Source of the DNA: Cytophagales bacterium
Lineage (GTDB): Bacteria; Bacteroidota; Bacteroidia; Cytophagales; Cyclobacteriaceae
DNA: 64,000 bases
Assembly: GCA_016124425.1 (NCBI GenBank)
Contig: WGNT01000025.1
Location: 16,310 to 80,309, forward strand
Direction: 5' to 3'
Under the pieces are notes generated by a model. It saw only the letters and a list, made by a program, of their open reading frames with translations, was not told where the DNA came from and did not search any database. The position numbers were made by a program, and so were the translations under genes. Position 1 is the stretch's first letter. Every line of letters begins with the position of its first letter. This document shows positions 42,288-45,116 of the stretch, piece by piece.

Positions 42288-45116
42288 ATGATGGCTGAAT
42301 TTATCAATTACTTCTGGCAAAGTTTTTTTTGTCTTTGCTTTTTCTTCGGGATCTACTGGGTATTTCTGAGAAACGAGAAATCGTTCCGTTTCAACAGGGC
42401 CTTTTTGCTAATCACCCCCGCACTGGCGCTTTTGTTCCCTTTAGTAGAAATTCCCGTGAGTTTTGATAAACCCAGTATTTCTCTTGAAAACACCACCCTT
42501 CTAAAATCGCTCATAGAAACCTCAGAGGTAGAAACCATCGGGACCTATGGGCTCCCAGAAATCATTGTTACAGACACCAAACTTCCGCTGCTGTGGGAAA
42601 TTAAAGATTATCTGCTTTTCACCTACTTAAGCATTGTCGGGCTATTGTCATTTCAGCTGTTTTGGCAATACCTGCAGCTACGGCAGCTGGAAGAAAAAGG
42701 CTGGTATCAGGCAGTTTTCAAATTAAACGGAGACTATTTCCTGATACCGACCTTTGGTCTGGCACCTGTATTTTCTTTCTTCAACAAACTCTTTTGGGAC
42801 GATACGCAGCAGCTTTCCCCAGAAGAGCAGTCGCATATCATTCAGCATGAGCTGGAGCATATCCACCAAAAACACACTTGGGATGTGCTGTATTACCAAG
42901 CACTAAGCATCCTTTTCTGGTTCAACCCAGTGATTCATCTGATGCGTCTTGCGCTTGTAGACCTCCATGAATACCTGGCCGATGAAAAGGTGCTGGGTAA
43001 AATCGAAAATAAATCAAGCTATTCTCAGCTTATCGTCAAAATGGCTTTTAAGGGACTAGATCTTCCGATTGGCAATTACTTTATCCGATCTACTACCTTA
43101 AAAAGAATAATAATGATGAAGAAGTCAGCTAAAATCAACTGCTTCAAACTCGCCATGGTATTGCCCCTGATAGGCATGCTTTTTGGCTTGGTAAGCATGA
43201 AGACCGAGCGTGGCCTAGTCCTTTTCACCAATTACGAAACGGCCAATATCCGGACGATTGAGCAACAAATGCTCGACCTGCAGGATTCGCTTAACGTCGG
43301 CATCAAGGTCAGGAGTTTAAAGAACCCCGCACATTACGAGAAAATAGAAGCCCTACAAAACGGAGTCCTAAAAGCGCAACTAGGCGAACTGGAATATGAG
43401 TTTTCGGGAATAAAAACCGATGCCGACTACCTGAAGGTCAGGGAACTGATACAGATCCTCCGGTCAAATTCGCAGATGACGAAAACATATGAAAATGCGA
43501 AACAGTCAAGAGAGGTAGAGAATACGCCGCAGCCCGTAGCAGGATGGCAAGCTTGGGAGGACTTCCTTCGATCTCAAGTAAATTCCCCCGAAAAGGAGAA
43601 GGCCTTAGGGCTATCAGGGGTCGTCGAACTGGAATTCATTGTAGATAAAGAAGGAATCATCCGGCATCCTGTTATCCGTAGGAGCTTTGGCGGAGGAGTG
43701 GATGATCAGCTGCTTACCGCTTTGAAGAGCGAGAATGTTCCGGCATGGGAACCCGGCTTAGCTAACGACAAACCGGTTCCGGTCGTCATGTCCTACCCTT
43801 TGGGCTTTGATTTCCGGACAGATGAAGAACCAAAAACAGCCTTTTTCCCCCAGCCAAAAAATTACTTGCAATCCCAAAACTATCCCCGGGGAGGAACGAA
43901 CAAATCAGAAATCTTTGATGTGGTTGAATCGATGCCGATACCACCCGGAGGAATGGAAGGCTGGAACGACTACCTTAAAGAAAATTTACGCTACCCCGCG
44001 TCTGCCAAAGAACAAAAGGTCGAAGGTACTGTCTACGTCATGTTTGTGGTAGACAAAGAAGGCAACTTGAAAAATCCGGAAATCCTACGAGGTGTAGGGG
44101 CTGGATTGGATGAAGAGGCAATGCGGGTAATAAAAGAATCTCCGGCTTGGACACCCGGCATGCAACACGGCACCTTAGTGAACGTAAAATTAAGAATGCC
44201 CATTCGGTTTAGATTGCCTGAATCTTATGTGGGCCAGGATGACAGGCTAGAGGAGCTAAAAACCGCCAACACAGACTGGAAAAACGGCGATATTATTCCC
44301 GGTGAAGCCTTTCATAAGCACATACAGCGAAATATCAAGTACCCAATAGAGGCACGTCAGGAGGGAGTGACTGGCACGGTAATTACCAAACTTATTTTCG
44401 ACAGCAAGGGAAACATCAAGGATCTAAGCATCGTCAAAGGACCGAATAAATCCTTAAATGAAGAGGTACTGAGACAGCTTAGGGGAGCACCTGCATGGGA
44501 AGTGGTGAACGGAAAAGACAGCTATCAGGCGGTCTACCCGATTACGTTCAAACTAGATAACGAATCCGTAAAGGAACCCGACTACCGTACAGTCCTAGGA
44601 AAAGGGACAGTTGTGGTGGGTTATGGAACCCAATCAGGTAACTTGAATCAAAACCCAAGAAGTAACGGGATTCTTTCTATCAATGTAATTAATGATCGGT
44701 TGGTGAATTTCAACGGAGAAATACTGACGATCGATGCTAACTTGCCGCTTGCGATCAAAGCCATTTTGGAAGAAAATGGCTTTATCGCTGCCGAAACCAC
44801 CGCACAACTGAGTGCGGCATCCGCCGTAAAAATGGGAACGGTACAAGATGTACAGCAAGCATTGAAGAGCAATAATATTACCCGCCTGTTGTATACCAAC
44901 TCAAGGCTCAAGGACAAACAACCTAAAACGCCGGACGCCAATATCCTACTTGAAAATCAGCCCTTAGTAATCTTAGATGGCGTAGTGAATGCGTCAATAG
45001 AGGACGTTAATCCCACACATATAGAAAGCGTGTCAGTTTTAAAAGACAAAAATGCTGTTCGCCTTTACGGTGCAGCTGCTAAAAACGGCGTCATCATTGT
45101 AACCACCAAAAAATAA
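42288..45116 (+). CDS. M56 (BlaR1-type) metallopeptidase with three TonB C-terminal-like repeats, ExbD-periplasmic-like and SusC-plug-like segments
   Basis: M56 '[36 protein letters not shown]'; TonB_C-like repeats '[20 protein letters not shown]..', '[20 protein letters not shown]..', '[20 protein letters not shown]..'; ExbD-like '[20 protein letters not shown]...[18 protein letters not shown]'; plug-like '[51 protein letters not shown]'. Confidence 0.9.
   Translation: [942 protein letters not shown]

Follow-up and report, generated by a model that had tools for sequence, protein, structure and literature searches.

A BlaR1-like membrane protease with a periplasmic part built from Ton and SusC pieces, a candidate reporter of Ton-system state in Cyclobacteriaceae

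The stretch of Cytophagales bacterium DNA analysed here (the window: 64,000 nucleotides of contig WGNT01000025.1, positions 16,310 to 80,309) encodes, directly behind a blaI repressor gene, a 942-amino-acid (aa) protein that joins an M56 membrane protease to three TonB C-terminal domains (TonB_C), a TonB box, an ExbD periplasmic domain and half of a SusC-type plug. We propose, from its sequence, that this protein, below called the sensor, is a BlaR1-like membrane receptor-protease that reports the state of the Ton system, a reading to which we give a probability of about 0.5. Every periplasmic module that could be identified in the sensor (TonB_C, TonB box, ExbD, half-plug) derives from the Ton/SusC machine. 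Because parts of one machine are reused, in order, and are close to the cell's own copies, the sensor would read the Ton system through the same binding partners as the original parts. The source genome (G000; 195 contigs totalling 5.5 Mb, 88.6% complete) is a member of the Cyclobacteriaceae, the family that includes Lunatimonas, Echinicola and Mongoliibacter, and the closest named relative for the sensor is Lunatimonas salinarum (62% over the whole length).

The features of the blaI-sensor pair are as follows (window coordinates, strand, then positions in the sensor).

41921..42283, +: blaI, Penicillinase_R/BlaI repressor, 120 aa (Pfam 1.6e-28, above cut-off)
42288..45116, +: sensor, M56-TonB_C(x3)-TonB box-ExbD-half plug, 942 aa (reading frame, Pfam, NCBIfam, structure model, fold search)
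42288..43202, +: M56 membrane protease domain, aa 1-305 (Pfam M56; Foldseek matches to BlaR1 8exq and 8exr; hydropathy)
42846..42860, +: HELEH zinc motif, aa 187-191; H187, E188 and H191 invariant in 28 orthologues
42969..42983, +: EYLAD, second gluzincin motif ExxxD, aa 228-232; E228 and D232 invariant in 28 orthologues
43521..43814, +: TonB_C repeat 1, aa 412-509; has lost the YP motif and shares 34% identity with the genome's TonB
43929..44222, +: TonB_C repeat 2, aa 548-645; shares 61% identity across 96 aa with the C-terminal domain of the genome's TonB
44277..44558, +: TonB_C repeat 3, aa 664-757; 37% identical to the genome's TonB
44607..44630, +: TonB-box motif VVVGYGTQ, aa 774-781; matches the segment preceding the plug in SusC proteins of the same genome
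44670..44906, +: ExbD periplasmic domain lacking the ExbD membrane helix, aa 795-873 (profiles, structure model, fold search)
44952..45113, +: C-terminal tail, aa 889-942, the second half of a SusC/RagA plug; its last residues before the stop codon are ...VTTKK

Results

A conserved mosaic frame

The sensor frame starts four bases after blaI and runs intact from ATG to stop without a frame break. It is also open in 28 orthologues from the same family as the source genome (43-75% identity), on which ground we reject a frame or assembly artefact; the layout is kept by all 28, and the frame is not a chance mosaic. Every orthologue has the M56 domain, two to four TonB_C domains and one or two half-plugs, and a TonB box follows the last TonB_C in 26, including two copies that the pattern missed and that read HGYG in the alignment. 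The ExbD domain occurs in nine of the 28; the family sample shows it in 14 M56 frames of the sensor architecture, from 5 genera. A tree built from the M56 part groups ten ExbD-bearing rows into one supported clade (99/97) and leaves one pair apart, a pattern in which one ExbD gain and two cannot be told apart. Six orthologues (L027, L028, L005, L006, L037 and L018) have two tandem half-plugs in place of the ExbD domain and single half-plug. In some relatives the match is interrupted by stop codons, which looks like decay (G039:C33, G003:C94, G045:C16), so loss also occurs.

Such variation in TonB_C count, half-plug count and ExbD content is what neutral domain shuffling would produce, with M56 proteins acquiring abundant periplasmic modules and the true ligand being something else; M56 proteins with unrelated tails (HEAT repeats, S41 peptidase) do exist. 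The modules are nevertheless taken almost only from one machine, and both the constancy of TonB_C and half-plug and the near-constancy of the box, at this level of divergence, speak against shuffling, which we regard as improbable.

The protease domain and its BlaI partner

Pfam places Peptidase_M56 in the sensor at 6.5e-14 (52.2 bits against a curated cut-off of 31). The sensor resembles BlaR1/MecR1-BlaI/MecI of S. aureus in its HExxH and ExxxD motifs, in the adjoining blaI, in having a membrane protease ahead of a C-terminal outside part, and in its match to 8exq/8exr. BlaR1 carries the gluzincin motifs as H201ExxH and E242xxxD (PMC9834060). Nine residues past the first His, BlaR1 has Asp210 where the sensor has H196, making the surround of the active site slightly different. 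The predicted helices and charge pattern of the sensor agree with four transmembrane (TM) helices, a cytosolic protease site and a C-terminal part outside, with most of the TM region modelled at a predicted local distance difference test (pLDDT) below 50; TM4 is predicted at aa 286-304. A small modelled domain at about aa 335-400 is conserved and of a kind we did not recognise. A blaI gene lies upstream in every orthologue whose upstream gene is readable. The earlier note on this DNA, made from the letters alone, had described a single 942-aa mosaic frame with an M56 region containing HELEH and paired with BlaI, and all of this holds.

In BlaR1, the protease cuts BlaI directly, with its active site in the cytosol and its sensor outside, and a loop competes in the sensor site, displacement of which signals to the protease (PMC9834060). 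The sensor described here differs from BlaR1/MecR1 in that its sensor part is made of TonB_C, ExbD and SusC pieces rather than a penicillin-binding domain, and its operon contains no beta-lactamase gene. Neither a penicillin-binding sensor domain nor a known wall-binding domain was matched in it by Pfam or NCBIfam.

Three TonB C-terminal domains

TonB_C is matched in three stretches (Pfam 4.4e-37; 126.8 bits against a curated cut-off of 24.6). The well-kept state of these domains would suit a working TonB, energising receptors with the M56 membrane part as its anchor. The anchor helix of TonB carries an SxxxH motif. By its features, however, the sensor is not a TonB energy transducer: it has the M56 membrane domain as anchor, no His in TM4, the helix preceding the TonB_C part, and no Pro-rich linker. 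The genome has a canonical TonB, a stand-alone protein of 224 aa with a TM helix, a Pro-rich linker and a C-terminal domain, and the sensor retains a complete protease motif and its blaI pairing. A role as working TonB is very improbable.

A TonB box followed by half a plug

The segment VVVGYGTQ is the SusC TonB box region rather than a loose motif, judging by its match to SusC proteins of the same genome. In the B. theta SusC protein Bt1763, the TonB box was established by mutation as VDEVVV (PMC7782687). The tail of the sensor matches the SusC/RagA family at aa 889-942 (NCBIfam 5e-16), the SusC signature at aa 912-941 (43.1 bits, cut-off 46.2) and, slightly below the cut-off, Pfam Plug at aa 890-935 (1.6e-4; 22.6 bits, cut-off 23.9), and a profile-profile comparison with SusC plugs gives E = 2.6e-26. 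The tail spans positions 56-107 of the Plug model and then meets the stop codon; among the 81 plug matches in the genome, the sensor's alone starts mid-model (position 55). A full plug domain is thus rejected in favour of its second half. The sensor resembles SusC/RagA in the motifs EVVVVGYG and PLxxxDGV...IESVSVLKD...YG.. and in the order of box and plug half, which is that of SusC, and differs from it in missing the first half of the plug, the N-terminal extension and the beta-barrel.

These SusC mimics are precise, and the genome has about 80 plug-bearing receptors, which makes an envelope-damage sensor conceivable. The TonB_C repeats, acting as strand-capturing domains of a general kind, would then bind exposed or misassembled segments of outer-membrane receptors, as the PDZ domains of DegS sense the tails of outer-membrane proteins, and the sensor's own TonB box and half-plug would be a tethered mimic displaced by the real ones, much as the BlaR1 loop competes in its own sensor site (PMC9834060). 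The protease-BlaI step would be the same, and the report would be of damage and not of load. This explanation leaves the ExbD modules found in several M56 lineages unaccounted for, and the box-plug pair retains the intact SusC order; we consider it rather unlikely.

An ExbD periplasmic domain outside the motor

Pfam finds no ExbD match in the window's copy of the sensor, while PF02472 (ExbD) is matched by 4 of the 28 orthologues, the best at 2e-6. Profile-profile comparison of the segment with ExbD proteins of the family gives E = 1.2e-4 and a probability of 54.7%, against at most 2.3% for 30 column-shuffled control profiles. A profile made from nine sensor ExbD segments (A4) and run on 198 genomes of the family at E <= 1e-3 matched in 173 of them, and the matches listed lie mostly in frames of ~155-160 aa that are the ExbD2 gene, within its last 45 residues. 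The cell's own ExbD2 is the closest relative of the domain (38% over 34 aa, 1.8e-4, BLASTP). Modelled with AlphaFold2, aa 783-942 reach pLDDT 75-94 over most of the ExbD part, and the five best PDB matches of this model found with Foldseek are ExbD periplasmic domains (8p9r, 8vgc, 8vgd, 8pek), followed by TolR, with probability 1.00 and target TM-scores of 0.77-0.83 for 8p9r and 8vgd. Foldseek with the full-length model independently returned the TonB C-terminal domain, BlaR1 and ExbD. Searching PDB sequences with a profile of the segment retrieved no ExbD, so the case rests on Pfam in the orthologues, the profiles, BLASTP, the model and the fold search together. Chance resemblance is rejected on the shuffled controls, the recovery of ExbD2 genes by a sensor-derived profile and the fold search.

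The domain shares with the ExbD/TolR periplasmic domain, including that of the genome's ExbD2, its fold and the conserved block VKMGxVxDxQ...RxLxYT. Unlike ExbD, it has no membrane helix (none is found in aa 757-942) and so cannot be a motor subunit, and it is fused past a TonB box. The earlier note had read the C-terminal part as three TonB-like repeats, the string VVVGYGTQ, an ExbD-like segment and a plug-like tail. All three repeats proved to be real TonB_C domains above the Pfam cut-off, VVVGYGTQ can now be assigned to the SusC TonB box region, and a structure model, as the note had suggested, together with a fold search confirmed the ExbD fold; for the tail, the homology to SusC plugs stood and the full plug fold did not.

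Since the periplasmic domain of ExbD transiently binds glycan chains of peptidoglycan (PMC10771500), and given the BlaR1 ancestry of the sensor, TonB_C and ExbD domains touching peptidoglycan might instead sense wall stress, much as BlaR1 does. The absence of Pfam and NCBIfam matches to penicillin-binding or wall-binding domains tells against a cell-wall sensor, as do the TonB box and half-plug, which have no part in wall sensing, and the close match of repeat 2 to the cell's own TonB. We think it unlikely.

Related M56-BlaI proteins across Bacteroidota

A BlaI gene was found near 56 of 60 M56 loci sampled phylum-wide and picked by strong or long matches, hence a biased sample. A Pfam scan of 66 M56 proteins, some of them added on purpose, gave TonB_C in 19, CarboxypepD_reg in 4, Plug in 2 and ExbD in 3, all three ExbD cases being among the added ones; a more sensitive half-plug profile marks about nine M56 proteins in the sample. 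CarboxypepD_reg is the kind of domain that precedes the TonB box in SusC. The M56-TonB fusions that the earlier note had named for Bacteroidota are borne out. TonB-family proteins with a MecR1/BlaR1-like N-terminal extension, their TonB C-terminal domains sometimes in series, were reportedly described from this phylum by Chu et al. in 2007. Compared with such fusions, the sensor has three TonB_C domains plus a TonB box, an ExbD domain and a half-plug. The source genome itself has a second M56-BlaI pair, M56-TonB_C-CarboxypepD_reg (L002:754-2262, -), which shares M56, TonB_C and a BlaI of its own with the sensor and differs in its single TonB_C, its CarboxypepD_reg domain and its lack of ExbD and half-plug.

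Differently built M56 proteins have ExbD modules as well. One genus (g83) has, next to BlaI, an M56 protein with ExbD directly past the protease and no TonB_C (L216:2401-4386, +). In another family, the M56 proteins of L224-L226, each paired with a BlaI of its own, carry ExbD modules and are laid out quite differently; that of L226:1084-2655 (-; family f22, genus g149), with blaI adjoining, has a tandem ExbD pair (38.2 bits against a cut-off of 25.4), ExbD2-like then ExbD1-like by eye. A 1110-aa M56 protein of family f28 (L190:754-4083, +) has two CarboxypepD_reg domains, two TonB_C domains and a weak ExbD match (Pfam 1.6e-3).

The sensor may accordingly belong to a widespread Bacteroidota class of M56-BlaI systems, with sensor parts drawn from the TonB C-terminal domain, ExbD1/ExbD2, the SusC N-terminal domain, the TonB box and the half-plug. 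In such a class the protease would measure itself against the Ton machine of its own cell and couple transport load to transcription, a form of surveillance distinct from the FecI/FecR type. We hold this broader proposal tentatively, at somewhat less than even odds. By the earlier note's own terms, a common and well-characterised family of this architecture would have spoken against its reading. The M56-BlaI theme turned out to be common in Bacteroidota, and we found no paper on M56-ExbD fusions or on a TonB-box/half-plug tail in the open literature, subscription papers lying outside the search.

Separately, three stand-alone proteins of 106-132 aa with lipoprotein-like N-termini (..VGFSC, ..TLLAC, ..FAAGC; L217:2411-2806, -; L218:2471-2833, +; L219:2611-2928, -) consist of one ExbD periplasmic domain without a membrane helix, that of L219 above the Pfam ExbD cut-off. 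These are possibly free-standing ExbD mimics.

The blaI promoter and the neighbouring genes

Two further features lie upstream of blaI.

41876..41905, +: promoter/operator-like element TTG-N20-TAAGTTG with AAACTAA between the boxes (41887-41893), conserved upstream of blaI; the operator role is putative
41859..41865, +: TTTAGTT, which is AACTAA in inverted form, lying upstream of the -33 element and shared by some of the orthologues; putative role as below

Of 32 regions upstream of blaI, 30 carry the element, with AAACTAA at a fixed position in it, against 0.1% of shuffled sequences; in the other two it lies farther upstream and the start codon is called later. It resembles the promoter form of Bacteroidota, TTTG / TAnnTTTG. 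AAACTAA could be a BlaI half-site and TTTAGTT is a possible second one. A zero-mismatch AAACTAANNNNNTAAGTT of the element is the only one in the genome, one-mismatch occurrences there fall short of the reversed-pattern control, and relatives share no second site and show an overall count that is not above that control. A BlaI regulon defined by this element was therefore seen neither in the source genome nor in relatives, and the sequence data suggest at most self-regulation of the blaI-sensor operon.

Downstream of the sensor, the window has acetylxylan-esterase-like and TIM-barrel-like genes (45283-47642). We do not claim these as targets; they follow the sensor in g1, g19 and g67, and other genes do so elsewhere.

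Discussion

The earlier note had inferred a system that monitors TonB, ExbD and receptor status and signals by BlaI proteolysis; such a role would suit every module of the sensor. The reading we prefer, a protease that reports on the Ton system, suggests the following course of events. The M56 domain would be embedded in the inner membrane, its zinc site facing the cytoplasm, beside the repressor BlaI, and the TonB_C repeats, TonB box, ExbD domain and half-plug would be exposed to the periplasm. The TonB box binds the TonB C-terminal domain and the D-box binds ExbD, both by beta-strand addition (PMC10907165). If the modules keep the partners of their originals, TonB_C would bind the boxes of loaded receptors, the TonB box would bind TonB and the ExbD domain would bind the D-box of TonB. 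At rest, the modules would be paired internally or with idle Ton parts. Many loaded receptors combined with a shortage of TonB that is free or energised, or else stray fragments of plugs, would then shift the pairing, presumably in the direction that releases the protease, and BlaI would be cut, derepressing its own operon and perhaps further targets. Because both partners lie within one protein, the sensor may alternate between pairing internally and engaging the cell's own parts, in a way similar to the competing loop of BlaR1 (PMC9834060). A specific cis switch between TonB box and TonB_C is a guess that deserves little credence.

Several observations weigh against a reporter of the Ton system. 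The ExbD domain cannot be essential to the mechanism, since most orthologues lack it. The element turned up at no second promoter, which leaves no Ton gene tied to BlaI, and the genes neighbouring the blaI-sensor pair are metabolic, not Ton genes, and vary between genera. The TonB_C and ExbD folds can also contact peptidoglycan (PMC10771500 for ExbD). Finally, the AlphaFold2 model of the full-length sensor does not predict the arrangement of its domains (pTM, the predicted TM-score, 0.31), and its TM regions are mostly below pLDDT 50.

In Bacteroidota, nutrients enter by way of dozens of SusC receptors served by a small number of TonB motors, as the roughly 80 plug domains of the source genome illustrate. 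We know of no account of how these bacteria sense a Ton motor that is overloaded, de-energised or damaged. A repressor-cleaving protease that carries copies of TonB, ExbD and the TonB box would, if our reading is true, be a directly testable answer to this question, and the design of BlaR1, best known from antibiotic resistance, would have been reused by swapping the sensor.

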